In this document: positions 21,441 to 39,255 of the stretch, in pieces | Position numbering within the stretch: position 1 is the first letter of the stretch | Layout: each line of letters starts with the position of its first letter | Assembly: GCA_903871855.1 (NCBI GenBank) | Contig: CAIQIK010000016.1 | Location: 1-64,000, forward strand | Source of the DNA: an uncultured Caldisericota bacterium | GTDB lineage: Bacteria; Caldisericota; Caldisericia; Cryosericales; Cryosericaceae | Reading direction: 5' to 3' | Length of the DNA stretch: 64,000 nucleotides | The notes under the pieces: generated by a model | Databases searched by the model: none | Seen by the model: only the letters and a program-made list of their open reading frames with translations | Told to the model about the DNA's origin: nothing | Program-made: the position numbers and the translations under genes

Positions 21441-22556
21441 CTAGAAGCCGCGAGGCGGCCCCTTGCGCAATATGGCAGGGAGCTCGACTTCCTCGACCTT
21501 GAATTCCTTGAGAATCTTCTTCTCCTGTTCTGTCTCGGCTTTTTGAGGCTGCATCCCGGACGCTACCACCGTGATACGAATCTCATCGTTGGCCTCGCCA
21601 GACTCACCCAGGACTTCGTCAAAAGGATCGGCCAGACCGAAAATGATCTTGGCATCCTTCGACTTTGATGCACTCGACTGAATCGCCGTCGAGATGACAT
21701 CCATCTCTTCCATAGAGATCTCATGGCCAATGACGTTGTAGATAAGCCCGGTGGCGCCCTGCATTGAATACTCGAGCAGCTCGTAGTTGGTGGCGGCCCT
21801 GATGGCCTTTGCCGCACGTTCGTCACCCTTACCCGTTCCCATGCCTATCCAGATGCTGCCGTCTGTTCTATCGGGAAGCTCTCCAGAAGAAGTCGATGTT
21901 AAAACGTTTTTGAGATCAGCAAAATCGAGGTTGATGATACCAGGTGTCCGGATGAGCTCAGTGATGCCCTGAACCGCCTTCTTCAGGACCTCGTCGGCCT
22001 TACGGAATGCATTGCTGATGGTGATCTTCCCTTCCTCCAATTTGAATAGCCGCTGGTTTGGGATGACGATCAATCCATCGACACTGTCGCGAAGCTCCTT
22101 GATGCCATCCGCTGCGACCTTGGATCGCTGGGGGCCCTCGAAGTTGAACGGCTTGGTGACAATTGCAATGGTGAGGATGCCTAGCTCGCGAGCCACTTTC
22201 GCTAGGACAGGAGAACCTCCTGTGCCCGTGCCTCCACCCATGCCGGCAGTTATGAACAGAAGAGAGGAGCCGGTAATTGCTTCTTTGAGTATCTCTCTGC
22301 TCTCTTCTGCTGCTTTTCTCCCCACCTCAGGGTCGGCGCCTGCGCCCATTCCTCGAGCTACCTTCGCCCCAATCTGAACCTTGCTTTCTGCCCGACTGTA
22401 TCGCAAAACCTGCGTATCTGTGTTGACGGCCATGAAATCGACACCGGAAGGAAAATCCCCTACCATCCGATTGATAGCATTGCCACCCCCACCGCCCACA
22501 CCGATGACCCTAATGCTTACATTCGAGCTTCCCCAGGGATCCAGTCGATCATCCAT
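21441..22556 (-). CDS. ftsZ: Cell division protein FtsZ
   Basis: GVGGGGGNAINRM, GMGGGTGTGGSPV tubulin signature. Confidence 0.98.
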   Translation of the reverse strand: MDDRLDPWGSSNVSIRVIGVGGGGGNAINRMVGDFPSGVDFMAVNTDTQVLRYSRAESKVQIGAKVARGMGAGADPEVGRKAAEESREILKEAITGSSLLFITAGMGGGTGTGGSPVLAKVARELGILTIAIVTKPFNFEGPQRSKVAADGIKELRDSVDGLIVIPNQRLFKLEEGKITISNAFRKADEVLKKAVQGITELIRTPGIINLDFADLKNVLTSTSSGELPDRTDGSIWIGMGTGKGDERAAKAIRAATNYELLEYSMQGATGLIYNVIGHEISMEEMDVISTAIQSSASKSKDAKIIFGLADPFDEVLGESGEANDEIRITVVASGMQPQKAETEQEKKILKEFKVEEVELPAILRKGPPRGF

Positions 22557-22584
22557 AGTGGATTTCCCTCCCCGTCAGTACGTC

Positions 22585-23817
22585 TTAGTCAAACAGGTCA
22601 AGGCCCTTGAACAAACCGATCAGGCCTTTGAATGCGCGCTTCTTCTGGACTCCTGCACCATCGCCGTGGATGCCGAGTTCGAGCAACCCGACTGATGTCG
22701 AGAAGCTGGGATTCTTGAACGAGCTGAAAACAACGTCATCAACTGTCGGCTGTCCCATTCGAGCTCGCAGTCCGCTGATCTCAGAGAACTTGTCCGCGAT
22801 GTGAGGCACCATCGCCGTCCCTCCGGTCAAGACGAGACCGGCCGGCAGCATGTTATTGTAGCTGGAGTGTACCAGTTCCAGTTTCACGGCCTCAGCTATT
22901 TCCTCGACACGCGATGTCACGACATCGCTGATATATGACTTCGTTGTTGCAAGAACACCATCACCCGATGCTGTCGAATAACTCACCTGGCTATCCTGAA
23001 AATCCTTTCCCCTGCTCGCATCCACCGAACCGTAGGCCACCTTGAGCTCTTCAGCAACATTCAGGCTTGTCTTCAGCATCATGGCAAGATCCATCGTCAC
23101 ATGGCGGCCACCTATAGGTAGGACGGCGATATAGCTGAGACTGCCTCCTGTAAAAACGGCCAGGTCCGTCGTGTCTCCCCCGATGTCGACGCAGGCGACT
23201 CCGATTTCCTTCTCTTCTAATGAGAGGACAGCATCAGCTGACGCCAAGCCTTCGACCACGAGCCTATCCACCTTGAGACCAGACTCTGTCACACAACGAC
23301 GGAGGTTGTCCAGGATCGTCGATTGTCCAGTGACTATGAACGCCTCAAACTCAAGACGGATGCCCGACATCCTCAATGGGTCCTTGATGCCTTCCTGACC
23401 GTCCACGAGGTACTGGCGCGGGATCACATGGATGATCTCCTGGTTTGGTCCCAGCAAGATGGCTCTGGCAGACTCCCACACGCGATTCACATCGTCCTTC
23501 TGTATCTCCCGCCCCGGCCGGGATATTGCAACAAGGCCACGGTTCACCAATCCAGTGATATGACTACCGCCAACGTTCACGATTACCGACGAGATGGAGT
23601 AGCTGCTCATCCGTTCTGCCTCGTCGCGTGCCGCTTGGATAGCCTGTGTCACACCTTCCATATCTACGACGACGCCACGCTTCAGACTGCTGCACGGCGC
23701 CGTGCCGACCCCGAGAATGGAGTCGAGGCTGCCTCCTGTCGCCGAAGCTATGAGCATCTTGACGCGGGTACTCCCAATATCGAGTACACTGACGATTCTT
23801 TCCTGGCCAGCCATCAT
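22585..23817 (-). CDS. ftsA: Cell division protein FtsA
   Basis: SVLDIGSTRVKMLIA, CVDIGGDTTDLAVF, LVLTGGTAMVPHI. Confidence 0.96.
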   Translation of the reverse strand: MMAGQERIVSVLDIGSTRVKMLIASATGGSLDSILGVGTAPCSSLKRGVVVDMEGVTQAIQAARDEAERMSSYSISSVIVNVGGSHITGLVNRGLVAISRPGREIQKDDVNRVWESARAILLGPNQEIIHVIPRQYLVDGQEGIKDPLRMSGIRLEFEAFIVTGQSTILDNLRRCVTESGLKVDRLVVEGLASADAVLSLEEKEIGVACVDIGGDTTDLAVFTGGSLSYIAVLPIGGRHVTMDLAMMLKTSLNVAEELKVAYGSVDASRGKDFQDSQVSYSTASGDGVLATTKSYISDVVTSRVEEIAEAVKLELVHSSYNNMLPAGLVLTGGTAMVPHIADKFSEISGLRARMGQPTVDDVVFSSFKNPSFSTSVGLLELGIHGDGAGVQKKRAFKGLIGLFKGLDLFD

Positions 23818-24155
23818 GCCTCCTTCTTCAAGAGAACGCGTCGGATGATTGCAATGTTCTGGTACATCCTGCTTCCGAACACGACGACTGCCGCAAGGTA
23901 AAGGTCGATGCCCAGCTGATCACCCAAATACCCAAGCAGCGCTGCAACAAGACTGTTGATCAGGAAACCTGACAAGAATACTGTTGCATCGAAGCTGTCC
24001 TTCAGGTAACCCTTGATACCGCCGAGGATTGAATCCATGCCAGCCAGAAGGGCCAACCCCACATACTTAGAATAGACGGCGGGAATATGCACGGGGCGAA
24101 GAATCCCGATGATGATACCAAGTACGAGTCCGCATACTGTTACGAAGCCAACCAT
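23814..24155 (-). CDS. Small basic protein (DUF1290 family)
   Basis: Multi-TM 113 aa protein, LALLAGMDSILGGIKGYLKDSFDATVFLSGFLINSLVAALLGYLGDQLGIDLYLAAVVVFGSRMYQN. Confidence 0.9.
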   Translation of the reverse strand: MVGFVTVCGLVLGIIIGILRPVHIPAVYSKYVGLALLAGMDSILGGIKGYLKDSFDATVFLSGFLINSLVAALLGYLGDQLGIDLYLAAVVVFGSRMYQNIAIIRRVLLKKEA

Positions 24156-24174
24156 AGATATCTGTTTTCCTCCC

Positions 24175-24846
24175 CTAGTTGCTGATCCTTAGCAGGTTGA
24201 CTTTTTGAACTATAGCACCAATGCGCCTCAGGTTCAACAAATCGAGCACACCTCCGGGAATCTGCAGCCCCTTGGACATGTTTTCCGTGTCGCCAATCGC
24301 GTCTATAACCAGTGGCATGCTCGTTACCTTTTCACCCACGCGAACGTTGAGGCCCGCTCTGTATACGGAACTCGAGTCGGTCAGGCGTATGCCATTCAAC
24401 GATATGACTTCGGCTCCCGATGCCCAGAGATCATTGAGAAGAAGGAGCAGGTCCTCATCGGCCAGTATTGATGGTGAGGACCCTGATGATTGCTCTCGGA
24501 TCGTGATCCGGATGCCAGGACCGGCGAGCGGGACGGCCCCGGTTCTCTGTTTCAACGCAGTAGCTTCGTGCTGCAACTGATTCACTTGCGCGGCAGTGTC
24601 ATCAGAAGAACGAAGGTATTGCATGACTTTCTGCGACATGTCTGTCTCCTCGACGAGGAGGTCCTGTTTGTGCTGCTGGAGGTCCTTGATGACACGGATG
24701 AGGTCCTGCGGGTCCTGGTTCTGATAGGTCTGCTTCATCTCGCGGACGACGTGCGCCTGTCCAGGGAGGAGGAGCCCGACAAAGAAACTAATGACAAAGA
24801 AAATCAGAATTGTCGACTGCCAGCGCGACTGCCTGGTCCGCTTCAT
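24175..24846 (-). CDS. DUF881 family protein (copy 1)
   Basis: GPGIRITIREQS...LLLLLNDLWASGAEVISLNGIRLTDSSS. Confidence 0.87.
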   Translation of the reverse strand: MKRTRQSRWQSTILIFFVISFFVGLLLPGQAHVVREMKQTYQNQDPQDLIRVIKDLQQHKQDLLVEETDMSQKVMQYLRSSDDTAAQVNQLQHEATALKQRTGAVPLAGPGIRITIREQSSGSSPSILADEDLLLLLNDLWASGAEVISLNGIRLTDSSSVYRAGLNVRVGEKVTSMPLVIDAIGDTENMSKGLQIPGGVLDLLNLRRIGAIVQKVNLLRISN

Positions 24847-25577
24847 TTGGCACCTGCTGCATACTTAAACGCAGCGTTGTTCAGCGACGCCGGGACAGTC
24901 ACGGACGTCTTCGTCTCAAGCGAACACGTGATCTCAAACCGATCACGGTATACCTCCAGCACCCGGAAGAAAACGTCCTGAGAAATGCTGTCGGCGAGCA
25001 TCTCGGGGTTTCCCAGTGCAGTGATAACGTAGGGTGGCGACATCCTGCTCGAATTCACGAGGATGATGGGGCCAGCACAAACGATAGGGGTATTCCCGAG
25101 AACGCGCTGGTCGTTGATGGCAATCGCCGTGGCACCATATCTCCGCATGAGATTCACGACGCTGCGGAGGTAACCGTCGTGGATGACGAAGTAGTTCGGA
25201 TCATCGGAGAGTGTCGGGGTACGGGAACTGTCGCTCAGCGTTACGATAACACCAGGACCCGTCGCCTCGGCAAGCCCCGCTTTTGCTCTCAGCTCTCCAA
25301 GCTGCTGCGTTAGAACACGCACTTCGTCGCTCGTGGCAGCGCCCTTGCTCTCAAGCTCTCCTAACTGTCCCCGAAGATCGACAATGCGCTGGGCAGCACT
25401 ATCATTCTCCTTTTCCAGTCCCTTCATGATTTCGACCAACTCGACATTCTGGGCAGAAACGACGTACGCTTTGTTTACTGTAGGCTCGAACTGGACAGCC
25501 AAAAGGTATCCGAATCCGGCAGCTATGATGAACAGCGCAGTGAGGAAAAGGCCTCCGTTTCTTCCACGTGTGATCAT
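24843..25577 (-). CDS. DUF881 family protein (copy 2)
   Basis: TGPGVIVTLSDSS...FVIHDGYLRSVVNLMRRYGATAIAINDQRVLGNTPIVCAGPIILVN. Confidence 0.87.
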   Translation of the reverse strand: MITRGRNGGLFLTALFIIAAGFGYLLAVQFEPTVNKAYVVSAQNVELVEIMKGLEKENDSAAQRIVDLRGQLGELESKGAATSDEVRVLTQQLGELRAKAGLAEATGPGVIVTLSDSSRTPTLSDDPNYFVIHDGYLRSVVNLMRRYGATAIAINDQRVLGNTPIVCAGPIILVNSSRMSPPYVITALGNPEMLADSISQDVFFRVLEVYRDRFEITCSLETKTSVTVPASLNNAAFKYAAGAK

Positions 25578-26248
25578 GGGGTCCCCGGGATGACGGCCTG
25601 GCCGTCGAACCGCAGATCGATGGTTACTTTCTTCACTTTGAATGCAGGCATGCCGAGGACCGCGATCCCTCGTTCGATCTTGGAAGCCCCATTCGCGCTA
25701 TCACCGAAGATAAGCGTCTTGCCGTCTTTCAACCGTACGACAAATCCCATTGATGAGGACAGTGACATATCCATGACAGCCAACTGGTCCCGATACTGCA
25801 TCAACTGGCAGCACAGCGGCGCATACTTGAGCGAAGTGGCCAGAAAGGCTGGGGGTGCAGACGGGAACCCACTTACGTCAACCACGTTCCAGGACGCCGA
25901 TGCCCTTGTCACGGTGTAGGCTGTTCCCGTCTGCAGGAACACGGCAACCAGCTTATCCCCTTGCCTGATCACCACATCGGGGTCAGTTATGTCTACACTG
26001 ACAGTGGCGTTCCAGGGTCGTTCGCGCTTGATAGTCACATCAGAAACGGGGAGTCCCTTCAGCCTGTCAACGACCGAAACCCTGCTGAGGAACATGAGGA
26101 AACCCTGAGGTCTACTACGCCAGACCTGATCCACGACAGGAGCCTCCCAGGAGTCTGCATGTACGGCTACACGAGCGGCCGGTACAGTAAACCAGTAGAC
26201 CGCCACTACCACCAAAGCAATCAGACCCATGCGCCACAGTAGCTTCAT
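25574..26248 (-). CDS. ftsQ: FtsQ/DivIB-like division protein
   Basis: Position in dcw cluster; N-terminal TM, POTRA-like segment (SVVDRLKGLPVSDVTIKRERPWNATVSVDITDPDVVIRQGDKLVAV). Confidence 0.6.
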   Translation of the reverse strand: MKLLWRMGLIALVVVAVYWFTVPAARVAVHADSWEAPVVDQVWRSRPQGFLMFLSRVSVVDRLKGLPVSDVTIKRERPWNATVSVDITDPDVVIRQGDKLVAVFLQTGTAYTVTRASASWNVVDVSGFPSAPPAFLATSLKYAPLCCQLMQYRDQLAVMDMSLSSSMGFVVRLKDGKTLIFGDSANGASKIERGIAVLGMPAFKVKKVTIDLRFDGQAVIPGTP

Positions 26249-26287
26249 AAACGGAGGAACTCATAACTGATACCCATGCACCACCTC

Positions 26288-27199
26288 TTAGGAGAAGTCG
26301 CCCAGCAGCCTGATCTCGGGCGAAAGGCGCACGTTGAACCGTGCATAGACTCTCTGTACGACAATGTCCATAAGGCGTATGACATCAAGTGCCGTCGCTC
26401 CTCCCAGATTGACGATGAAGTTCGCATGCTTGGCCGACACTTGCGCCTGCCCCACCTGGAGTCCCTTACACTCAGCTTCCTCTATCAGCTTGCCGGCATA
26501 GGTCGTTGGAGGATTCGTGAAGATACTTCCTGCGTTCGGATACTCCCAAGACTGTTTCGTATGCTTCTCCGATCGAATACGTGCAGCTGTCGACCGGATT
26601 GTTGCTCCGTCACCGGGTTCAAGGTCAAATGCAGCGCCCAGAATGATGGCCCCGCTCTCCTGAAACTCACTATAGCGGTAGTCAAAATCGACATCTTCAT
26701 GCTTCTTTACGGCATACTCGAGGTTGCGATCAAGGACTTCTACATACGCCAGGTGGTTGCTTATGGCCTGAGAGAACGAACCTGCGTTCATGTAGATGGC
26801 TCCCCCAACAGTACCGGGTATGCTGATGAGATATTCCAGTCCAGACAGATCCTGCTGTATGGCGAAGTCAAGCAGGGAGGACAGTGGCATCGGGGCACGA
26901 GCAAGCACCAGTCTTTTCTCCATCAATGGCCGAAGCGAGGTCTCCATGAGTCTTACGACCAAGCCTTCGACACCATGATCGGAGACAAGAACATTCGTTC
27001 CGTTGCCGAGAACAGTCGTCGGTATCTTGAGAGCTCTGGCAGCACGCAGTGCGCAAACCAGATCCTCCTCACCGCATGGCATGTAGAGGTACTCGGCCGG
27101 GCCGCCGATACGAAACGACGTGTAGGACGAGAGGGGCTCCTTCATCAGGACCCGTTGCTCGACGCGACGTCTGAACTTGTTTATGACCGAATCCACCAT
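26288..27199 (-). CDS. murB: UDP-N-acetylenolpyruvoylglucosamine reductase
   Basis: YTSFRIGGPAEYL, IPGTVGGAIYMNAG, AGSIFTNPPTTYAGKLIE; start overlaps murC stop (TGATG). Confidence 0.95.
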   Translation of the reverse strand: MVDSVINKFRRRVEQRVLMKEPLSSYTSFRIGGPAEYLYMPCGEEDLVCALRAARALKIPTTVLGNGTNVLVSDHGVEGLVVRLMETSLRPLMEKRLVLARAPMPLSSLLDFAIQQDLSGLEYLISIPGTVGGAIYMNAGSFSQAISNHLAYVEVLDRNLEYAVKKHEDVDFDYRYSEFQESGAIILGAAFDLEPGDGATIRSTAARIRSEKHTKQSWEYPNAGSIFTNPPTTYAGKLIEEAECKGLQVGQAQVSAKHANFIVNLGGATALDVIRLMDIVVQRVYARFNVRLSPEIRLLGDFS

Positions 27200-28668
27200 C
27201 AATCGTTCTCCTGCTTCGTGCATCCCTCAAGGGGTGTAGTGGTTTGATATTGTACCGTATTGCCGCTCGTGAGCAAACCACAAAACCTCAGGCCAAGCTT
27301 GTTCACATCACCGGGACCCATAAACAGTACCACATCGCCCCAAGTGGCTGACACCCGCAAGACGTCGAGCATCTGGTCCACAGGCATACGGGGTACCAAT
27401 GAGTCGCCAACCGCTGTCTTCACGCTTTCTCGCAGCCTCTCGTTCAGCTCTTCTGGACACTCCGTCGTCTCCCCTGCTGGGAAGATGTCGAGCAGCACGA
27501 CCCGCGAGACTCCAGCTAGTGCCGGTCCATAATCTTCAAGACACATCCTCACTCGGGAGAAACGATGCGGCTGGAGCACGAGGATAACTGACCTTCCGGG
27601 ATACCGTACTGAGACAGCCTGCAGAGTGGCCCTGATCTCAGTTGGGTGATCGGCATGGTCCGTAAGCACGAGCGTTCCATTGTGGTTCGCAAGGAGCTGC
27701 ATCCTTCGCTCCATTCCCGGGAAACCTTCCAGAACAGAGAGTGCCTCTGCGAAGGGAACCCCTGCAGCCTCACACGCCAGGCAAGCGGCCACAGCATTGA
27801 GATAACTCTTCTCGTCCCCCCGCTTCATGGCGAATGACCGCATCGTGCCTTCCCTTGCCACCATTGCCGTGTTGTCCTGAACGCGGTAATCAATCTGTAC
27901 CTGATTTGACTCTTCCTGACCGTACAAAACATGCCGTGGCAGGGCCTGCACGATCCTGGCCACTTCTATGTCGTCACCACAGCCGATGGTCAGACCGCCT
28001 CGCTCAGCGCACTGCCGGGCAAACTGGGCAAATGCGCTGGCAAGGTTGGAGAACTTGTCTCCATAGGCTCCCAGGTGGTCCCTGTCGATATTCGTCATCA
28101 CAGCGACATCTGGATGGAACTTCAGGAACGAGCCGTCTGATTCATCAGTCTCCAAAACCATGATTGCGCGTCCCTGAATCTGCTTCTGCTGCGTCCCTTC
28201 GGGGGGGAAGGCTTGGTCGAATCCTCTGATATGCCCCCCAACGCAGATGGTCGGAAAGAAGCCCTGTTTTGCCAGCGCGTATCCAATCATTCCCGATGTC
28301 GTGGTCTTGCCATGCGTGCCTGAAACGGCTATCAGGAAGTACTGCGATGCGACGGCAGACAAGACGTCTGTTCGGTGGAGAACGCTAGATCCAATACCTC
28401 TTGCGGCCACGAGTACGACGTTATCCGGGCGAATCGCGGATGACCGCGCAAGAATCTCGTCATTGCGAAGTGCTCCAGCTGCTTCAGCTTCGGACATCAC
28501 CAGTATGCCCAACGAGGCCAATCGTTTAGCCTCGAAACCGCAGTTCTCAATGTCTGAACCCCGCACATTCATACCGATGCTGCGCAGCAACATGGCCAGT
28601 GAACTCATCCCTGCGCCGCAGATGCCGACAAGAAAAAACGGTGTTCCAAGTTGCAAGGGCTCAATCAC
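27199..28668 (-). CDS. murC: UDP-N-acetylmuramate--L-alanine ligase
   Basis: GICGAGMSSLA, SGTHGKTTTSGM. Confidence 0.96.
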   Translation of the reverse strand: MIEPLQLGTPFFLVGICGAGMSSLAMLLRSIGMNVRGSDIENCGFEAKRLASLGILVMSEAEAAGALRNDEILARSSAIRPDNVVLVAARGIGSSVLHRTDVLSAVASQYFLIAVSGTHGKTTTSGMIGYALAKQGFFPTICVGGHIRGFDQAFPPEGTQQKQIQGRAIMVLETDESDGSFLKFHPDVAVMTNIDRDHLGAYGDKFSNLASAFAQFARQCAERGGLTIGCGDDIEVARIVQALPRHVLYGQEESNQVQIDYRVQDNTAMVAREGTMRSFAMKRGDEKSYLNAVAACLACEAAGVPFAEALSVLEGFPGMERRMQLLANHNGTLVLTDHADHPTEIRATLQAVSVRYPGRSVILVLQPHRFSRVRMCLEDYGPALAGVSRVVLLDIFPAGETTECPEELNERLRESVKTAVGDSLVPRMPVDQMLDVLRVSATWGDVVLFMGPGDVNKLGLRFCGLLTSGNTVQYQTTTPLEGCTKQEND

Positions 28669-29728
28669 GTGAGCACTCCTCCTCGATGGTGCGTGCTATG
28701 GCATTCGCGGCATCACTCCTGAAAATAGTGGAAGCAGGAAGGGACAAGCTTGCTTTATCATCGAGCGCCTTCTCCACGATGGACAGGTACCCGTCAAACT
28801 GCAGTGACTGCTGCTCAATGCGTATACCGAGACCGAGATTTTCAAGATATGTCGCATTTTTCGACTGGTGCCGACCAATGGCGAATGGATAGGGGATGAC
28901 AACAGCATAGATGCCTCCGACAGCAAGCTCCGTAAGCGCAAGTGCACCACCTCTTGTCACCGCCACACGAGTCTGCTCATAGAGTCGCTCCATATGCTCC
29001 TCATAGGAGATGATGGCAGGACTAACGTGGTGCAGAGATAGTCCGTCCACCGCATTACAAATCCTCGCATACTCGTCGGTTCCAGTTACCACGGTGACTG
29101 GAAGTTCGCGCCCCCTGCTTTCCAGCTCCTGGATCGTCCGCAGAAACAGTTCGTTGACAAAACTTGCTCCGCCGCTACCCCCGATGAACAGTAGTCCCCG
29201 GCGAAGGGGTTTACTGGACCGGCACTCCGTCAGTGCCGCGTAGACCTTGCGTCGCAGAGGGTTTCCAGTGACAATGAACCGTGGACCCGAGACTCCTTCA
29301 ACGGGAAACCCCAGGAACACGCGCCGTGCACAGCCGGAAAACAGTCGATTCGCCCTCCCCATGACAGCATTCTGTTCCAGAAGGTATATTGGAACCCCAC
29401 TCATCCGCGCAGCAACGATCCCTGGCACCGATACGTATCCGCCGGTACCAATGAAAGCGTTCGCGTGGGTGTCCGTCATGATGCAGCGAGCCGCCCTCAC
29501 TCCGCCTCGAGTTGCACATGCAAGGCGCCATATCGATCGGGGGGTATACAGAAGCGGGGCGGAACAGACGGTTCTGACATCAAGCCCATGGGAGAGGAAA
29601 ACACGTTCTTCCATGCTGCCGGACCGTGCCAGCATGGTGACGGTCCCACTGTCCGACAAACGCTCAGCGATTGCGACTGCTGGGTAGATATGCCCCCCAG
29701 TTCCTCCTCCAGCGATAACGTAGTGCAT
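28661..29728 (-). CDS. murG: MurG glycosyltransferase
   Basis: AGGGTGGHIYPAVAIAE, TGGYVSVPGIVAA, LEQNAVMGRANRL. Confidence 0.96.
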   Translation of the reverse strand: MHYVIAGGGTGGHIYPAVAIAERLSDSGTVTMLARSGSMEERVFLSHGLDVRTVCSAPLLYTPRSIWRLACATRGGVRAARCIMTDTHANAFIGTGGYVSVPGIVAARMSGVPIYLLEQNAVMGRANRLFSGCARRVFLGFPVEGVSGPRFIVTGNPLRRKVYAALTECRSSKPLRRGLLFIGGSGGASFVNELFLRTIQELESRGRELPVTVVTGTDEYARICNAVDGLSLHHVSPAIISYEEHMERLYEQTRVAVTRGGALALTELAVGGIYAVVIPYPFAIGRHQSKNATYLENLGLGIRIEQQSLQFDGYLSIVEKALDDKASLSLPASTIFRSDAANAIARTIEEECSRD

Positions 29729-30816
29729 CAGACAGCCTCCGGGCTCCGGGAAATAGCTCCCGCGATGCCAAGTGCGGCCATCTCGAAGACGATGTGATTG
29801 CCCCCCTGACTGAAGAAAGGCAGTGGCACTCCTGTCGTAGGAAGCAGTCCGACAACAACACCGATGTTGACAAACACCTGCACGGCGAGGAATACGCCCA
29901 GCGCCATGGTATAGACTCGGGCGAACGGCTCCGAGGACCTCGAGGCAAGCCTGAACAGATCAAAGACGAGCCACAGAAAAATACCGAGCACAATGGTCAC
30001 GCCGATAAGTCCAAACTCCTCCGAGAATATGGCAAAAACAAAGTCATTTTCCTGGGCCGGGAAGTGGACAAATTTCTGGACGCTCCGCATGAAACCCCGC
30101 CCCAGCATGCCGCCCCGCGCGACGGCAAACATGGAGTTGACCAGCTGATAGGCCACGCCTTTGGCCTTATCGACAGCCAGCGGGTTGATGAACGAGGTCA
30201 TCCTGACCTTCCAGGAAGCTTTCACGTTCACCGCCACCAGTGCCAGGGCGCTCAGGGCAGCCGTTCGGCTGATCCAGTAGCCAAACGGAGCACCAACGCC
30301 AAGCAGGATGACAATTGAGGACCCGGCAATGACGAAGGCCGTCCCGAAGTCGGGTTCCAGTGCGACCAGACCCGTGAACGCCAGCACGAATAGCAGAAAC
30401 GCGCGGTAGTATCGATGGCCATACTGGTTCAGGTACTTGCCGCTGAAGAGCTTGGCGGCGAGAAGAGGCACCACCAGGACAGCTGCCTGAGATGGCTGCA
30501 AGCCAATTGAACTCGTCCCGATCCATCGGCTGGAGCCATTGACACTTCTGCCGATACCGGGAACAAGAACAGCGACCAGCAACGCCCCCAGAGCATACGT
30601 CAGGAATTCGGACATGTCTGCCCAGCGCATGTACTTGAACCGCGAACTGAACCAGTAGGCGAAGACTCCCACACCTACGATAATCGCCTGCTTGACGACA
30701 CTCGGGGTGACCGCTACCAATTGACCTCGCGCAGCACTGAGACTGACGGCGATACTGTAGTTCTGTAGTACCCCCAGGCAGAGCAGTATGGCGACGAGAA
30801 CCAGAATACGTTTCAC
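29728..30816 (-). CDS. ftsW: FtsW/RodA/SpoVE (SEDS) protein
   Basis: Multi-TM; NGSSRWIG, LEPDFGTAFVIAGSS, NDFVFAIFSEEFGLIG, PTTGVPLPFFSQGG. Confidence 0.94.
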   Translation of the reverse strand: MKRILVLVAILLCLGVLQNYSIAVSLSAARGQLVAVTPSVVKQAIIVGVGVFAYWFSSRFKYMRWADMSEFLTYALGALLVAVLVPGIGRSVNGSSRWIGTSSIGLQPSQAAVLVVPLLAAKLFSGKYLNQYGHRYYRAFLLFVLAFTGLVALEPDFGTAFVIAGSSIVILLGVGAPFGYWISRTAALSALALVAVNVKASWKVRMTSFINPLAVDKAKGVAYQLVNSMFAVARGGMLGRGFMRSVQKFVHFPAQENDFVFAIFSEEFGLIGVTIVLGIFLWLVFDLFRLASRSSEPFARVYTMALGVFLAVQVFVNIGVVVGLLPTTGVPLPFFSQGGNHIVFEMAALGIAGAISRSPEAV

Positions 30817-32192
30817 GGCGCGATAGAACCCAGGCGACCCTGCACGATCTCCCTGAACCGGTCGCCACGCTGCTCAAAATCCCTGAACATGTCGAAACTG
30901 GCACAAGCAGGAGACAGAAGCAGCGTACCGCCTGCAGAAAGAAGTCGCACTCCATTGCTAACAGCGTCCTCAAGCGATTCGACGCGCACAATCGTCTTCA
31001 TGCCAACCGTGCGCAGCGCATCTTCGATAGCCGGGCCGGTCGCGCCCATCACGATTGCCGACACCAGATTTCTGTCTTGAACCAGATGCTGCGCCATCTC
31101 GTCGAATGAGACCTCCTTCGAGCTGCCTCCCAGAATGACAGTATATGGTCCAGTCATAGCATTAGCTGCTGTCATGACCGATTCTGGCGTCGTTGCCTTG
31201 GAGTCGTTGACGAACGTCACGCCACCTGCTGTTCCAACGTACTCCAGTCGGTGAGGCAGCCCGTTGAAGTCCCTCACGGCCCTGCGGATGGCATCTGGCG
31301 AGATACCGTACAGAAAGGCCGCCAGAGCTGCGCTCATAGCATTCGCCACATTGTGCCGCCCCGGGATGCGCAGATCTGTCTCCCTGAACAACTCCACCGT
31401 TCGTGTCGCATCTTTGAAAATGATAATGCCATCGACAACGTGCACGCCAGAGAATACATCATTGCCCAGTCCGAAGTAGAACACGGAAGGACTCAGCGTT
31501 GGCCCAAGCGCTCTCAGCGTGGGATCGTCCCAGTTAAGCACAACGGTGTCTTCTGTGGTCATGTTCTCAAATATGCGCCTTTTCGTGGCAAAATAGCGTT
31601 CCATGGTACCATAGCGGTCAAGATGGTTCGGAGTCAGGTTTGAGAAGATGGCCACACTCGGGTGAAACGTATGGGTGGTCTCGAGTTGAAAACAGCTGAC
31701 CTCCAGAACCGCAGGTCCTGCCAATGGATGTTCCACCAGAAGCTGCGACACTGGAGGACCCAGGTTGCCCCCCGTCACTGTGCCGGGATACTCCTCAGCA
31801 ACGATTTTCCCAAGAAGAGCTGTGGTCGTGCTCTTGCCATTGCTGCCAGTAACGGCAAGCATTGACAGATCGGCATACGCAGCAATCTCCATCTCACCAA
31901 CGACGAGTTTGCCCATCTGCACGGCGGCCAAGACAATCGGAGCTTTGGGCGGGACACCAGGCGACACGATGACGACGTCGAAGGCGGCCATGAGATTCGC
32001 ACTGTTCTGTCCAAATTCAAAGGGAATTCGCGCCTGCTGAAGAAGCCGTACGGCATGCTCGAACTTCTCGTCGGCAGCCTGCTGCTTGAACTCCGACACG
32101 AAGACGTCGACTCCGTGATCATGCAGGTACAAGGCTGCGTACAATCCACTTGGCAATGCTCCGACGATGAACGCAGAATTGAAAGGGATCAC
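30813..32192 (-). CDS. murD: UDP-N-acetylmuramoylalanine--D-glutamate ligase
   Basis: VTGSNGKSTTTALLGKI, SNLTPNHLDRYGTMERYFATKRRIF, NDSKATTPES. Confidence 0.95.
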   Translation of the reverse strand: MIPFNSAFIVGALPSGLYAALYLHDHGVDVFVSEFKQQAADEKFEHAVRLLQQARIPFEFGQNSANLMAAFDVVIVSPGVPPKAPIVLAAVQMGKLVVGEMEIAAYADLSMLAVTGSNGKSTTTALLGKIVAEEYPGTVTGGNLGPPVSQLLVEHPLAGPAVLEVSCFQLETTHTFHPSVAIFSNLTPNHLDRYGTMERYFATKRRIFENMTTEDTVVLNWDDPTLRALGPTLSPSVFYFGLGNDVFSGVHVVDGIIIFKDATRTVELFRETDLRIPGRHNVANAMSAALAAFLYGISPDAIRRAVRDFNGLPHRLEYVGTAGGVTFVNDSKATTPESVMTAANAMTGPYTVILGGSSKEVSFDEMAQHLVQDRNLVSAIVMGATGPAIEDALRTVGMKTIVRVESLEDAVSNGVRLLSAGGTLLLSPACASFDMFRDFEQRGDRFREIVQGRLGSIAP

Positions 32193-32195
32193 TGG

Positions 32196-33176
32196 TTACC
32201 TCCACGTCATCGTCAGTGCTCCCGCAATGACAAACAGGGTACTCACAACAAAGAACCGGTCGACGATCTTCGGCTCAGTCCACCCCAGCTTCTCAAAATG
32301 GTGATGTATCGGAGCCATAAGGAACACCCTCTTCCGGCGCCCAGAGGTTTTGAAGACAAATACCTGGATCATCACGCTTATCGCCTCTCCCAGGAACAGT
32401 CCTCCCAGCAAGATCGATGACACCTGGTTCCCGGAGGCAAACGCCCACGCGACGAAAATGGAACCAAGCGCAAGCGACCCCGTATCTCCCATAAACACTG
32501 ATGCTTTTGAGCCATTGAACCACAGAAACGAAATGACGAACGCAACAGCTGCCAAAGGAAGCATGCCGGCCAGTCCCGCCGGATGCAACAGCGATGCCAC
32601 TCCAGCCACAGCAAATGCCGGAAGACTCGTCTTGGCAAGCAGACCATCAAGGCCATCCGTCAGGTTGAACGCATTCACCATGCCGACCGCGTACAGCATG
32701 GCAACAACGTAGAAAGCCCAGCCTGCGAGAAGGAATCCACCGCTGGTCAAACGAAGGGCCGGAATGATCGATGGATACGCCAGAGTGAAGAAGAGTCCGG
32801 CCGCTACTGCCTGGATCAGAAGTTTCTGGTAGCCAGGCAGTCCATCATTTCTGTGCTTGAGCTCTTTGATCCAGTCGTCCAGAAAACCGGAAAGGAGATT
32901 GATGGTCACGAAGACAATTGTGGCGACGTCGAGCTTTGTCAAGCCTCTTCGCCCCATCACGAAGAGATAGGCAGTCACGGCCCCGGTGATGTTGAGAACC
33001 AGCATCAGGCCACCCCCCGTAGGCGTACCCTCTTTGGACCTGTGAGAAACAGGCCCCTCGTCTCGTATCAACTGCGTAAACCGTGCCCTGCGAAGCCACA
33101 CAATGAGGAGTGGAAAAAGAGCCAGGTCCACAAGGGCAAGAACGAGGACCAGCGATGTGCCAAACGCCGCCGTCAT
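32196..33176 (-). CDS. mraY: Phospho-N-acetylmuramoyl-pentapeptide transferase
   Basis: KEGTPTGGGLML, GFLDDWIKELKHRNDGLPGYQKLLIQ, NLTDGLDGLL, FMGDTGSLALG. Confidence 0.96.
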   Translation of the reverse strand: MTAAFGTSLVLVLALVDLALFPLLIVWLRRARFTQLIRDEGPVSHRSKEGTPTGGGLMLVLNITGAVTAYLFVMGRRGLTKLDVATIVFVTINLLSGFLDDWIKELKHRNDGLPGYQKLLIQAVAAGLFFTLAYPSIIPALRLTSGGFLLAGWAFYVVAMLYAVGMVNAFNLTDGLDGLLAKTSLPAFAVAGVASLLHPAGLAGMLPLAAVAFVISFLWFNGSKASVFMGDTGSLALGSIFVAWAFASGNQVSSILLGGLFLGEAISVMIQVFVFKTSGRRKRVFLMAPIHHHFEKLGWTEPKIVDRFFVVSTLFVIAGALTMTWR

Positions 33177-34729
33177 CGCTGTCCCTCCTGCGACCGCAGA
33201 TCACTGGCACTACAGACATAGCCGTGATCGCGCAACGCGAGGCGCACCTCTTTCCGATCATCGAAGACAACATCCTCGTGCTCGTAGTACATGACCGTCT
33301 CATGTCCACGACCGAGAATCAGGACCATGTCGCCGGGTCTGGCTGCAGCAACGGCAGTTCGAATTGCCTGTCTTCTGTCTTCGATGACCGTGAAATGCTC
33401 GCTGGTAAACCCCTGTTCAATATCATGAACAGCAATCGACGCATCTTCATGACGAGGATCCTCGACAGTCACGTAAGACCAGCGGCAGGCCTCTTCTGCG
33501 AGGCGGGCCATAATCGGGCGTTTCTCGCGGTCGTCGGCACCGACAGAGCCGAACACGGCTAGCAAGTCCCCCCGAACAGTGGGCCGCACGGCGTTGAACA
33601 GTGCCGAGAACTCCTCTGGCGTATGGGCGTAATCCACGACGACCTCGAAGGGCTGCCCACAGTCAATGCGTTCATAGCGTCCGGGGATGTATAGTGGAGC
33701 AGCAAGAGATTGCACAGTCGTGCCCAGATCGCAGGTGGATTCAAGAGCACAGACCGAACTAATGGCCGCCAGACAGTTGGACGCCTGGAACGCCGGGCCG
33801 ATCGAAAGCTCCACGTTAAACGTAGCTCCATCTCGGGCACGGACCTGAAACGTGGTTTTTCCCATTATAGACACGACGTGGTCACCGTGCAGGTCAGCCT
33901 CTCGCTCCAGGGAAAACGTCCTGACCTGCGAGTGTCTCGCTGCGTTCCTGAATGCAGCGAACGAAGGATCGTCGGCGTTGAGAACGGCCACAGAGCTTTC
34001 ATCGAGTGACGTGAACAGGTGCAGCTTGGCCGTCAGATATGCGTCCATCGTGCCATGATAACCCATGTGGTCCTGCGAGAAATTGGTGAAGACTCCGCAA
34101 TCAAAGTGCATGCCATGGACTCTGCCAAAAGCGAGTGCAAACGAGGAAACCTCTAGTATCGCAACCTCAGCCCCCTGGTGGGCCGCATGGGCAAGGTACC
34201 AGTTGAGCGAAAAAGCCTCCGGCGTCGTGGCGGGAAGCGAGTCGGGAGGAAAGAACTCGCCGTCAGGCATGAAATAGCCCGTGGTCCCAATCATGACGCA
34301 TGCAATGTCCAGTCCCTGCAGAAGACGACGGATCATGTATGCTGTGCTTGTCTTGCCGCTCGTTCCAGTGATGCCGATCATTTTCATGCGACGAGCAGGG
34401 AAGCTGAAGAAGGCTTGCGAGATCAGACTCAGGAACTCACGGCAGCTCGAGACAACAACAACCGGAACATCCTGAACCTCAGGATGTTCCGTCTCGGCAA
34501 CGACGCAGGACGCCCCAGCGCAAAGAGCGCTTGTGATATAGGACGCCCCGTCCAGCCTGGTTCCGGGGATGGCGACAAACATTGCTCCCGGCCCGCATTC
34601 ACGGGAATCGGGCGTGACCAAACTGATCATGGTCCTTGCTCCAAGCGAAGAACGCTTGGGATCCCAGGACGATGGAGGCAGCATATGAAGGAGCTCGGTA
34701 AGCTCTTGTTCTCGGGCGGCGTATTTCAT
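33173..34729 (-). CDS. murE: MurE-type UDP-N-acetylmuramoyl-tripeptide synthetase
   Basis: GITGTSGKTSTAYMI, TNFSQDHMGYHGTMDAYLTAKLHLF, VDYAHTPEE; substrate motif EDPRHED. Confidence 0.93.
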   Translation of the reverse strand: MKYAAREQELTELLHMLPPSSWDPKRSSLGARTMISLVTPDSRECGPGAMFVAIPGTRLDGASYITSALCAGASCVVAETEHPEVQDVPVVVVSSCREFLSLISQAFFSFPARRMKMIGITGTSGKTSTAYMIRRLLQGLDIACVMIGTTGYFMPDGEFFPPDSLPATTPEAFSLNWYLAHAAHQGAEVAILEVSSFALAFGRVHGMHFDCGVFTNFSQDHMGYHGTMDAYLTAKLHLFTSLDESSVAVLNADDPSFAAFRNAARHSQVRTFSLEREADLHGDHVVSIMGKTTFQVRARDGATFNVELSIGPAFQASNCLAAISSVCALESTCDLGTTVQSLAAPLYIPGRYERIDCGQPFEVVVDYAHTPEEFSALFNAVRPTVRGDLLAVFGSVGADDREKRPIMARLAEEACRWSYVTVEDPRHEDASIAVHDIEQGFTSEHFTVIEDRRQAIRTAVAAARPGDMVLILGRGHETVMYYEHEDVVFDDRKEVRLALRDHGYVCSASDLRSQEGQR

Positions 34730-36435
34730 GGTTTCAACCTCAGATACTGTATCAGCTGGAGCGCAATCTTCTTGAAGGTTGGCCCCGCTACACGAAATGA
34801 CGTGCGTTCTCCTTTTTGGGTCTCATGGATGCTGAGGAACACGACGACCCTGGGGTCGTTCGCGGTCAGAATTCCTGCGAAGCTGAATACGTACGATCCG
34901 TCATTCAGATAGCCCCCACCGGGAGCGACGATCTGAGCAGTACCAGTCTTCCCGGCAACTTCATAGCCGGGGATGTACGCACTGAAAACGCCGACATCTT
35001 TCTGCACGACTCCATGAAGGCCCTCGAGAACAGCCTTGGCCGTCTCCGGCTTGAACAACTGGCCGACGACCCCAGGGACGTCCGTGCGCTGACTCGCCCC
35101 AGAAGCGTCGACGATATGGTCGACCACGTAGGGTCGCTGCATGAGGCCTCCGTTGGCTATCGTGGCGTAGAAGTTTGCCATTTGAATCGCCGTCACTGCT
35201 ATGCCTTGGCCAAATCCCATGGTGGGAAGCGTCGTCTTTGACCAGAGAGACGTCGGAAGCAGAATGCCGGATTCCTCTCCGGGCAGATCGATACCCGTCG
35301 GTTTGCCAAAACCGTACCGGCTCAGGCAGTCATAGAAGCGCGTAGCTCCTATCTTCATGCTCAATTGGCAAAACGCCACATTCGAGGAGTGCTGCAGCAT
35401 TGCGTAGAGGTTCATGGTCCCATATGGATAGAGATCGTGAACGACCGTGTCGAAGACTTTGAGACTACCACCGCTGTAGAACGTACTCTGCAGCGTGATC
35501 GTACCCGTCTCGAGACCAGCGACCGATGTTGCCGCCTTGAATACAGAACCAGGCTCATAGTTGGCACTGATTACCTTTTCTGACAGAGAGCTCATCGGAG
35601 CATCCTGCCAGTGTTCAGGATCCACGCCGGGGACATCGACCATCGCAAGGACCGCATCGGTCTTTGGGTCCAGGATCGTGCATGTAGCCCGCTTTCCATC
35701 ATACGTCTTGAGAGTGTCCATGAGAGCCTGCTGCGCGAAATACTGGATGTTCGAGTCGATTGTCAGCACGATGTTCTTCCCTGCTATGGGTTCGAGAACA
35801 TCTTCTGTGACGGCGGGCTCACCAGGGTTCGACCCGGAGACTCTGTAGGTATGCCGCCCGTCTGTACCTCCAAGTTCCTTGTCGTATTGAAACTCGATTC
35901 CCGACAGGCCCTGGTTGTCCGAGCCCGTGACGCCGACAACGGAAGACATGAGAGCTCCTAGTGGATAGACCCGGCGATAGCCCTTGTCCAGCACGATTCC
36001 TGGTATGTTGAGTCGGCTCAGTGCGTCGTATTCCACAACGCCTACCTGCTTCTTCAGATAAATGAAGCTTGATGACGCGCTGCGTATCTGTTGCTCCAGC
36101 TGCGTCACAGATGTCTTGAGGATGGGGGCAATGCTGGCGGCAGTCAAGTGAGGATCCCCCACTTCCTTCATGTACAGGCCCAGGGACCACGTCGCTACAT
36201 CCTGCGCTAGTACACGCCCTGTCGAATCCAGGATCATTCCTCGCTTTGCTTTGATAGGGATGGAGTCGGTTTCAAGCTGCTGGTTGGCCATGTTCACAAG
36301 AGCAGTTCGGGCCACTACTTGCAGATAGACGAACCGTGACTCAATTCCTAGCACTGCAACCAGGAATACAATAAAAACGACGACAAGACGTCGTCTGAAC
36401 ATATCATTGAAAGACGCGACGCCTCTCTTCATCAA
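34726..36435 (-). CDS. ftsI: Class B penicillin-binding protein (FtsI-like division transpeptidase)
   Basis: EPGSVFKAATS (SxxK), SSN, KTGTAQ motifs; N-terminal TM; no PASTA. Confidence 0.92.
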   Translation of the reverse strand: MMKRGVASFNDMFRRRLVVVFIVFLVAVLGIESRFVYLQVVARTALVNMANQQLETDSIPIKAKRGMILDSTGRVLAQDVATWSLGLYMKEVGDPHLTAASIAPILKTSVTQLEQQIRSASSSFIYLKKQVGVVEYDALSRLNIPGIVLDKGYRRVYPLGALMSSVVGVTGSDNQGLSGIEFQYDKELGGTDGRHTYRVSGSNPGEPAVTEDVLEPIAGKNIVLTIDSNIQYFAQQALMDTLKTYDGKRATCTILDPKTDAVLAMVDVPGVDPEHWQDAPMSSLSEKVISANYEPGSVFKAATSVAGLETGTITLQSTFYSGGSLKVFDTVVHDLYPYGTMNLYAMLQHSSNVAFCQLSMKIGATRFYDCLSRYGFGKPTGIDLPGEESGILLPTSLWSKTTLPTMGFGQGIAVTAIQMANFYATIANGGLMQRPYVVDHIVDASGASQRTDVPGVVGQLFKPETAKAVLEGLHGVVQKDVGVFSAYIPGYEVAGKTGTAQIVAPGGGYLNDGSYVFSFAGILTANDPRVVVFLSIHETQKGERTSFRVAGPTFKKIALQLIQYLRLKP

Positions 36436-36465
36436 TTCCGTATGGTCTTGACGCAGGGATTCCTA

Positions 36466-36810
36466 CTAGTGAAGACTGTCCAGTGTGCCAATCACCGCCG
36501 TGTTATTGGCTGCCATTCCTATGGCGCCTGCGGCAGCTCGCACCCGATCGGGTGACATGAGCTTTGTATCGCGCTCGAGCAGTGATTCTTGCAGCTGAAG
36601 CTGTACCTGAATGGCTGTCCTGTTCAACTCCACCTGATGTTCCAGGAAGAGAGTTGTGCTGTACACATAACCATAGGCACACAACAAACCAACGATCGTC
36701 ACGCTCAGAACAACATACCGACGTGTTGCGCTCCTTACCCTGGCCGAGACACGGACTGCCGCGGCAGGACGGCGGACTGTTGTGTAGTTGCCTCTGACTG
36801 CAATACTCAT
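36466..36810 (-). CDS. ftsL: FtsL-like small bitopic division protein
   Basis: Position between rsmH and ftsI; short N-terminal tail, one TM, coiled-coil-like C-terminus. Confidence 0.6.
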   Translation of the reverse strand: MSIAVRGNYTTVRRPAAAVRVSARVRSATRRYVVLSVTIVGLLCAYGYVYSTTLFLEHQVELNRTAIQVQLQLQESLLERDTKLMSPDRVRAAAGAIGMAANNTAVIGTLDSLH

Positions 36811-37715
36811 GGCTGTACCCTTTCCAGCACGCGCAACTTGGCGCTGCGAGAGCGTCTGTTCGTCACGACTTCTGAGTCCGTAGGCCGAATGACCTTCTTG
36901 TTGACCAGATGAAATCCTGGCTCCCCCGAGACCGGATTCCCGCAGAGAGCCAGGTAGCTTCTCTTCACAATTCTATCTTCGAGCGAATGGTAACTTATGA
37001 CCAGGAGTCTTCCATTTAGATTCAAGAGCGATGCTGCGGACTTGAGACCATTCTCGAGAGCATTGAGCTCATCGTTGACATATATGCGTAGAGCTTGAAA
37101 GGATTTGGTGGCAGGATGCAAGCGGGCGTGCCTGGTAGGGAAGACAGCGGCTACTGTCTCCGCCAATTCGCTCGTCGTCTCGATCGGCGCTCGTTGCCGA
37201 CGACGTACGATCGCGCGAGCGACCTGACGTGACCTTCCCTCCTCGCCGTACTTCCACAAGATGTCGGCGATATCTTCCTCTGGAAACGAGTTCACGATAT
37301 TCCTGGCAGAGACCTTGAGATTATCGTCCAGCCGCATGTCCAGTGGTTGGTCATGGCTAAACGAAAAACCCCTGCCTGTGCCCGTGAGTTGCTCTGAAGA
37401 AAAACCCAGATCCATCAGGATTCCGTCGAATCGTGTGTCTGGATAATCCTTCAACAACCGCGTCATGTCCCGAAAGTTTCCGCGGATGATAACCTTGCGG
37501 GCGGCAGTATCATTCAGCCGCTCGCGGGCAATGGCGAGAACCGCTGCATCAACGTCCAACATGAAAAGCGTCCCTTCGCTAGAAAGTTGACGCCCAACCT
37601 CATATGCGTGTCCGCCTTCCCCTGTCGTGCAATCCAGATAGGTTCCGTCTGGTCGAATCTGCAGGTATGTTATGACCTCGTCCAGGAGGACTGGGGTATG
37701 AACAAACTCACTCAT
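36807..37715 (-). CDS. rsmH: 16S rRNA (cytosine(1402)-N(4))-methyltransferase
   Basis: HTPVLLDEVITYL, DCTTGEGGHAYE, DLGFSSEQL, FSHDQPLDMRLD, ISYHSLEDRIVK. Confidence 0.97.
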   Translation of the reverse strand: MSEFVHTPVLLDEVITYLQIRPDGTYLDCTTGEGGHAYEVGRQLSSEGTLFMLDVDAAVLAIARERLNDTAARKVIIRGNFRDMTRLLKDYPDTRFDGILMDLGFSSEQLTGTGRGFSFSHDQPLDMRLDDNLKVSARNIVNSFPEEDIADILWKYGEEGRSRQVARAIVRRRQRAPIETTSELAETVAAVFPTRHARLHPATKSFQALRIYVNDELNALENGLKSAASLLNLNGRLLVISYHSLEDRIVKRSYLALCGNPVSGEPGFHLVNKKVIRPTDSEVVTNRRSRSAKLRVLERVQP

Positions 37716-38155
37716 CTGGCCTGCAAAGCTCCAATATTCTGTTCGAAAACCTTCTCCGCTTTAGACCGGTAGACATCCCAGATGTGAACGTCCCAGATCT
37801 CCAGGTGCGTCAAGGCACCGGCGAATACGATCTCTTTGTCGATCGAAGCATACTCACGTAGGTGTTGAGGTATCGAAATACGACCAATTTTGTCGAGTTC
37901 AACCGTTGCCGCTCCGCTGAAGAGAATGCGGACGAAAGCCCGATTGTCGGATGAGACAGGGATGAGGTCACCATAGAACCGGTCGATGATGGAGGTCCAC
38001 ACTCTGTCATCAAACAGGTAAAGGCATCGATCCATGCCCTTGGTGAGAACGTAGGAAGAGCCGGTGTCGCATCGGTAGTGGGCGGGGAACACTGTTCGTC
38101 CCTTGTCGTCCACGGAGTAACGGTATTCACCGATGAAGCAGTTCTCCTTGTTCAT
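37712..38155 (-). CDS. mraZ: Transcriptional regulator MraZ
   Basis: Two SpoVT/AbrB-like repeats (GEYRYSVDDKGRTVFPAHYR; VELDKIGRISIPQHLREYA); preferred start MNKENCF at 38155. Confidence 0.93.
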   Translation of the reverse strand: MNKENCFIGEYRYSVDDKGRTVFPAHYRCDTGSSYVLTKGMDRCLYLFDDRVWTSIIDRFYGDLIPVSSDNRAFVRILFSGAATVELDKIGRISIPQHLREYASIDKEIVFAGALTHLEIWDVHIWDVYRSKAEKVFEQNIGALQAR

Positions 38156-38161
38156 GGCGTA

Positions 38162-38190
38162 AGTATACCACAATTTCCCACTTTTTACCA
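38162..38190 (-). promoter_or_regulatory. mraZ promoter (-10 TATACT) with three 10-nt-phased MraZ-type boxes (TGGTA-N5-TGGGA-N5-TGGTA)
   Basis: Boxes on minus strand at 38186-38190, 38176-38180, 38166-38170; TATACT at 38162-38167, 6 nt before mraZ ATG. Confidence 0.7.
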
Positions 38191-38220
38191 CAATTCATGG
38201 AAAACCGCCAAGAACAAGTG

Positions 38221-39255
38221 TTAAACTATCGTTCCGCCCCCAAGTATATATCGGTTGTCGTAGAAGACCACCGCTTGTTCCGGGGTAACAGCAAACAATG
38301 AATCAGCCAGATGGACGGAGACTCTATCCTCAGAGACTCGGTCAATACTTCCTTTGACCGGCTTTGATCTGTATCGTGTCACGACGTCTGCGCTGAAGTG
38401 CAACGATTTTCCGGTGGGAAGATGCTGCCATTTCAGGTCGATAGCTTCAAACGCATCTCTCATGCACGCACTTCGCTGCCCGACGACCAGCTGATTCGTG
38501 GTGTATCGCTTCTCCACGACATAGAGCCGTGATGCAGCACTGATGCCAAGGCCTGATCGCTGGCCGATCGTGTATGACACTAGCCCCTGGTGCTTCCCGA
38601 TAACGGTTCCATCCGTCAGGATCACATCTCCAGGCATACATGGCAGGCGACGACGGATCTCTTCGCCGACCGAACCTTCCACAAAACACAGATCCTGACT
38701 TTCGCGACTTGCCAGAAGACCGGGGCTGAACCACCGTGAAGCCAGTCCCTCCACCTCGCTCTTGATGCGGCCCGCGAGAGGGAACAGGGCTCTGCGACGC
38801 TGCTCTGCCGAAAGCCGGTACAGGAAGTATGACTGATCCTTCGCCTGGTCTGTGCCACGGCAGATCTGATCCCCATCACCACCGTGGACGATTCCTGCGT
38901 AGTGGCCGCTCGCGATAAGGTCTGCATGCAGCTCGTCAGCCACGTTAAGCAATCCCTGCCACTTGACGTACTCGTTGCAGAATACACAAGGATTTGGCGT
39001 GGCCCCTTCGGCCATCGCTTGCCAGAACGGCTGGACGACCTGGCAGTCAAAGATGTCTTTCACGTCCACATTGTGCCAAACGATTCCAAGATGCTCGCAC
39101 TGGGCCTTCGCCCGTCGCGTGGAACTGATGTCACAGCACGCACTGTGCTGAGAGAAGTGCAGAGTGACCCCGATGACGTGTTCGCCAAGCTCTTTCAGGA
39201 GCAGTGCAGAGACAGCAGAGTCTACCCCTCCACTCATTCCGACTACGACGCTCAT
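38221..39255 (-). CDS. mnmA: tRNA-specific 2-thiouridylase
   Basis: VVGMSGGVDSAVSALLL, ATPNPCVFCNEYVKW, ASGHYA, GKHQGLVSYTIGQRSGLGI. Confidence 0.94.
   Translation of the reverse strand: MSVVVGMSGGVDSAVSALLLKELGEHVIGVTLHFSQHSACCDISSTRRAKAQCEHLGIVWHNVDVKDIFDCQVVQPFWQAMAEGATPNPCVFCNEYVKWQGLLNVADELHADLIASGHYAGIVHGGDGDQICRGTDQAKDQSYFLYRLSAEQRRRALFPLAGRIKSEVEGLASRWFSPGLLASRESQDLCFVEGSVGEEIRRRLPCMPGDVILTDGTVIGKHQGLVSYTIGQRSGLGISAASRLYVVEKRYTTNQLVVGQRSACMRDAFEAIDLKWQHLPTGKSLHFSADVVTRYRSKPVKGSIDRVSEDRVSVHLADSLFAVTPEQAVVFYDNRYILGGGTIV

Follow-up and report, generated by a model that had tools for sequence, protein, structure and literature searches.

A conserved three-box MraZ-type array overlapping the predicted promoter of an apparently leaderless mraZ gene in Caldisericota

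MraZ, a regulator encoded at the head of the dcw gene cluster, is a ring-shaped oligomer. In E. coli, three GTGGG boxes with 10-nt spacing lie before mraZ, the first dcw gene, at the promoter Pmra, and MraZ represses its own operon, according to PMC7761207, which cites Eraso 2014. These boxes are located downstream of the -10 (TAAACT, with box 1 beginning 14 nt after the -10 start), the promoter has a full TTGACA -35, and mraZ is preceded by a 45-nt leader with a Shine-Dalgarno (SD) sequence. In Burkholderia cenocepacia, four GTG-core repeats with a 10-nt period, which gave a gel shift with MraZ, are likewise found downstream of the -10, where they overlap the start site of a transcript with a 100-nt leader (PMC7761207). 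In Mollicutes, the MraZ site takes the form (AAAGTGK N3)x3, in which a box with a GTG core recurs three times at a period of 10 nt (PMC5282649), and in Mycoplasma genitalium there is one such site per genome, and the loss of mraZ raises dcw expression (PMC8475190). On the other hand, overexpression of MraZ in Mycoplasma gallisepticum went with more FtsZ (PMC8475190), therefore repression by MraZ is not universal. Furthermore, the operator of another Mollicutes regulator, HsdC, contains TG direct repeats that overlap both an extended -10 (TGTGTTAAAAT-N6-A) and the start (PMC5282649). Although HsdC controls a different operon, that of restriction-modification genes, and its repeat spacing differs by 1 nt, no other known system comes closer as a precedent for repeats that also serve as an extended -10.

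The DNA analysed here, hereafter the window, is a 64,000-nt stretch from an uncultured Caldisericota bacterium with a 1.84-Mb genome (G000). It contains an open reading frame (ORF) that was identified as mraZ by Pfam family PF02381 (score 97 bits, cut-off 23). The family matched two stretches of the protein, as in two-domain MraZ proteins, the DxxGR motifs are invariant in the alignment, and the sequence matches solved MraZ structures, e.g. 1n0e, 9qlg and 9sx6. The nearest named matches to this MraZ, with 79-96% identity over the full length, belong to Candidatus Cryosericum hinesii, terrychapinii and septentrionale and other Caldiserica. This places the window in Cryosericum, or very close to it, within the phylum Caldisericota. 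The Cryosericum proteins have a 5-residue N-terminal extension (MNKENC before F) compared with those of another family of the same class (f2), E. coli and the usual MFxGE. The stretch that encodes it (38155-38138, minus strand) contains AAGGAG, an SD-like word that is not kept in L011, the most distant Cryosericum, and that may be what is left of an earlier leader, now translated. The mraZ gene stands first in a complete dcw cluster, followed on the same strand by rsmH, a small ftsL-like ORF, an ftsI-type PBP gene, murE, mraY, murD, ftsW, murG, murC, murB, an ftsQ-like ORF, two further ORFs, ftsA and ftsZ; Pfam was run for mraZ, rsmH and the neighbouring ORFs, and the other dcw names were taken from the sequences themselves. 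No murF is found between murE and mraY (33173-32196, minus strand), and the best murF-like match, within a 689-aa open frame on another contig (G000:C20:106743-107783), is below the family cut-off. On the upstream side, the gap between mnmA and mraZ holds no terminator, so read-through from the upstream genes is possible.

Table 1. Coordinates of the mraZ upstream elements and the flanking genes in the window.
Feature	Positions	Strand	Remarks
MraZ-type box 1, GTGGTA	38186-38191	-	Over the promoter -35 position; identical in 12/12 Cryosericum genomes
MraZ-type box 2, GTGGGA	38176-38181	-	In the promoter spacer, 10 nt from box 1; kept in 11/12 Cryosericum genomes (ATGGGA in L008)
MraZ-type box 3, GTGGTA	38166-38171	-	Contributes TGn and the leading TA to the extended -10
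-10 hexamer TATACT	38162-38167	-	TGG at 38170-38168 makes it an extended -10; ATG follows after 6 nt
Gap TACGCC, -10 to ATG	38156-38161	-	6 nt; no SD
TTGGCG	38206-38211	-	Exactly 20 nt upstream of box 1; possible degenerate fourth box, or -35 for a weaker box-1 promoter
mraZ	37712-38155	-	147 aa; both DxxGR motifs; ATG start
dcw cluster downstream of the mraZ promoter	21441-37715	-	From ORF lists
mnmA	38221-39255	-	Upstream neighbour on the same strand; stop 65 nt before the mraZ ATG

The minus strand from 38190 to 38153 reads TGGTA-AAAAG-TGGGA-AATTG-TGGTATACT-TACGCC-ATG. A first-pass annotation of this DNA had described it as three boxes at an exact 10-nt period, the third of which overlaps a -10 hexamer, TATACT, located 6 nt before the ATG of the mraZ product MNKENCF, and all of this was borne out when the sequence was re-read (Table 1). 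The boxes (38190-38166) are better worded as GTGGKA with A/T-rich flanks. The word AATTGTGGTA is present twice in the array, 20 nt apart, and TGGTATACT constitutes an extended -10 (TGn-TATACT), the TGn of which is supplied by box 3. As no ordinary -35/-10 promoter pair was found in the mraZ upstream region, the strength of the promoter would rest on this extended -10. The exact three-box pattern has a single match with 0 mismatches in the window, the two others having 3 mismatches, which is the chance level; when the 1.84-Mb genome was scanned for three GTGGKA boxes at a 10-nt period with at most 2 mismatches, the only match was the mraZ site.

With at least three GTGG boxes at a 10-nt period upstream of mraZ, the locus belongs with the MraZ-type operators, and it shares the GTG core and the phasing with those of E. 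coli, B. cenocepacia and the Mollicutes, the number of three boxes with E. coli and the Mollicutes, and the single occurrence per genome with M. genitalium. A 15-nt part of the window array, AGTGGGAAATTGTGG, even recurs letter for letter in the mraZ operator region of E. coli K-12. The first-pass annotation had likened the array to the 10-nt-phased MraZ repeats known before dcw operons; the likeness holds for the phasing but not for the register, since the known dcw boxes are downstream of the -10. That trait of E. coli and B. cenocepacia, which is not required of an MraZ operator, is replaced here by an array that spans the promoter from the -35 position to the -10, with no apparent leader behind it. 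Three phased boxes were also present in nearly all the Bacillota-type and Actinomycetota-type mraZ loci read in our sample. In Actinomycetota-type loci the likely -10 often overlaps box 1 or box 2 and is paired with a TTGAC -35. In three of them (L213, L215 and L236) box 1 carries TGn-TAnnnT with a good -35; contact between boxes and the -10 is therefore not unique to Caldisericota. However, loci of both types differ from the window in that the -10 is at or near the first boxes and is then separated from mraZ by tens of nt, though the -10 scoring across the Bacillota-type loci is too noisy for a firm count of positions. In Bacillota-type loci (L179-L208), mraZ is often immediately preceded by GTGGGGTGA, a box-like word that seems to act as the ribosome binding site as well and that in some cases keeps the 10-nt phase of the array.

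The array is highly conserved among relatives. The first-pass annotation had named the loss of the phased boxes in close relatives as an outcome that would refute it; instead, the array is kept at all 12 Cryosericum mraZ loci, i.e. in the 12 genomes of the genus where mraZ was found (f1), and in 10 genomes from two other families. Over these 12 genomes, the mean column identity of the array and the -10 is 99.0%, compared with 73% for the 25 nt upstream and 92% for the first 30 coding nt. The -10 has one mismatch to TATAAT in 11 of them and none in L011, in which the identity of MraZ has dropped to 79%, TATACT is replaced by a perfect TATAAT, and all the boxes are retained. In all five f2 genomes, the MraZ proteins of which are only 35-37% identical to that of the window, three GTGGKA boxes are followed by TAAAAT within box 3, 7 nt, and an ATG without SD. 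In a third family of the same phylum (f7, five genomes), the -10 in the GTGGTA box is TAGAAT, TAAAAT or TATATT, but there is an extra box over the start and a leader with the SD sequence GGGAGA, and the start codon is ATG or, in two genomes, GTG; as L021 and L022 of this family also have a second -10-like hexamer directly before the array, the transcription start in f7 is ambiguous. A GTGGTA box running into a TAnnnT -10 is common to all 22 genomes. Conversely, in f3-f6 (29 genomes, G020-G048) neither mraZ nor an array with fewer than 2 mismatches was found, whereas zero-mismatch arrays are confined to the mraZ-bearing f1 and f2 genomes. The absence of mraZ from f3-f6 and its presence in f1, f2 and f7 suggest that the gene was lost within the class.

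The distance from the -10 to the ATG is 6 nt in all 12 f1 genomes and 7 nt in all five f2 genomes, within the 5-8 nt taken to indicate a leaderless transcript, so the transcript would be expected to start at the A of the AUG. All 17 genomes have an AUG start and no SD, in contrast to f7. We have also examined how often -10-like hexamers occur before the first ATG of long ORFs in general, using 640 kb of G000 with 524 such ORFs. Among the SD-less genes, the -10s peak at offset 6, where there are nine, the average for the other offsets being 1.75 (Poisson P ~9e-5), whereas not one gene with an SD has a -10 at offsets 4-12; similarly, 26 -10s at offsets 6-7 were counted in the f2 genome G019 against 11.7 expected (P ~2e-4). 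These counts are of lower quality because the choice of start codons was mechanical. The nine G000 cases include mraZ, which leaves eight that are independent of it, several with TGn before the hexamer. About one-third of the sampled genes have an SD by the motif list used, and the leaderless candidates are a small minority. Because of the excess of -10s at exactly 6 nt among SD-less genes, it is plausible that the organism uses leaderless initiation as a minority mode, into which mraZ would fit. Further SD-less genes that may be leaderless, their -10 being separated from the ATG by exactly 6 nt, were noted at L105, L107, L113, L156, L163 and L164 as well as in the window. The proposal that the mraZ mRNA is leaderless thus gains support from the fixed 6-7 nt gap, the missing SD and the ATG in 17 genomes, and the genome-wide excess of -10s, and we infer a leaderless message from these features. 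In the literature naming both 'mraZ' and 'leaderless', judged in part by title, no leaderless mraZ is evident; one of these papers is the source of the 45-nt leader of E. coli mraZ, another lists mraZ among CtrA targets, and a paper on M. pneumoniae has the two words in unrelated passages.

Taken together, these comparisons lend good support to the interpretation of the first-pass annotation, and we consider it likely that the element is a dcw operator-promoter, at which MraZ would repress its own promoter by covering all of it, the transcript being leaderless and starting at or next to the AUG. MraZ would occupy the three GTGGKA boxes next to one another, all on the same helical face. The core promoter lies under the boxes all the way from the -35 position to the -10, and box 3 itself provides the TGn and opening bases of the extended -10; MraZ on these sites should therefore shut out RNA polymerase and so reduce transcription of mraZ and of the downstream genes. 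At low MraZ levels, the polymerase would initiate at the A of the AUG, 7 nt past the -10, and produce a leaderless mraZ mRNA, which would be translated as such. The reading frame upstream of the ATG stays open, yet the region is conserved at every position, which argues for a regulatory rather than a coding constraint. A coding start further upstream (GTG at 38191 or beyond; the frame is open for 160-211 aa) was rejected, as the array and the -10 are conserved including the wobble positions and the upstream codons overlap the boxes. Nor was an RNA element or attenuator retained, no Rfam match having been found.

An unlikely, though not negligible, alternative is that the -10 in use is the one within box 1, which reads TAAAAA in Cryosericum and TAAAAT in two of the f2 genomes, and that TTGRCG or TTGTCA is its -35, in which case a leader of ~20 nt without SD would be made and boxes 2 and 3 would lie over the start and the leader, as in E. 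coli. The TTGGCG element is indeed kept in an otherwise variable distal part of the intergenic region, as TTGRCG in 11 of the 12 Cryosericum genomes (TTGACG in two) and GTGGCG in the twelfth, and it is located 18 nt before the TAAAAA with TGn, although it is also in helical phase with the boxes. Moreover, L014 of f2 has TTGTCA-16-TGG-TAAAAT, a better -35 for its box-1 -10 than for its box-3 -10, which counts against a start from box 3 there. We nevertheless rate this alternative low because TAAAAA is without the final T of a -10 in all 12 Cryosericum genomes, whereas a GTGGTA box with a TAnnnT -10 behind it occurs in 22 of 22; in addition, box 1 reads TAATTT or TAATTG in three of the five f2 genomes, and a 20-nt leader without SD would offer no evident ribosome site. 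Even less probable, in our view, is that MraZ acts as an activator, the bound boxes bending or contacting the promoter to help the polymerase in the absence of a -35. Such a role would agree with the lack of an ordinary -35 and with the raised FtsZ associated with MraZ overexpression in M. gallisepticum (PMC8475190), but some bases belong to both box 3 and the -10, so that MraZ binding and promoter melting would compete for the same DNA, and where boxes at or beside the start have been studied, the outcome is repression (E. coli, PMC7761207; M. genitalium, PMC8475190). Finally, although single TGG words are common, the idea that the spacing is an incidental product of an A/T-rich promoter with such words deserves practically no credence, being contradicted by the single match in the genome at up to 2 mismatches, its conservation in 22 genomes and its co-occurrence with mraZ.

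If the operator-promoter reading is correct, what is distinctive here would be that the whole array is upstream of a gene without an apparent leader and that its last box serves as the -10. The novelty is the position of a known MraZ operator, not a new system. Whether Caldisericia have gone so far as to fuse the MraZ operator with the promoter, so that the same letters act as the extended -10, the leader and SD are gone, and a single 35-nt element combines the site of the repressor, the promoter and the start of translation for the entire division and cell-wall cluster, is a question on which we find the case evenly balanced. If so, the sister family with a fourth box and an SD leader would mark an intermediate in the sliding of the operator relative to the promoter between phyla. 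The 10-nt period of the boxes is constant across phyla, while their position relative to the promoter shifts, from downstream in E. coli and Burkholderia to inside the -10 here. The locus would then be a clear and conserved case in which the operator of a division regulator and the -10 of the polymerase share bases. Moreover, if the mRNA is leaderless, the translation of mraZ in Caldisericota would bypass SD recognition, unlike that of the SD-led mraZ of E. coli.
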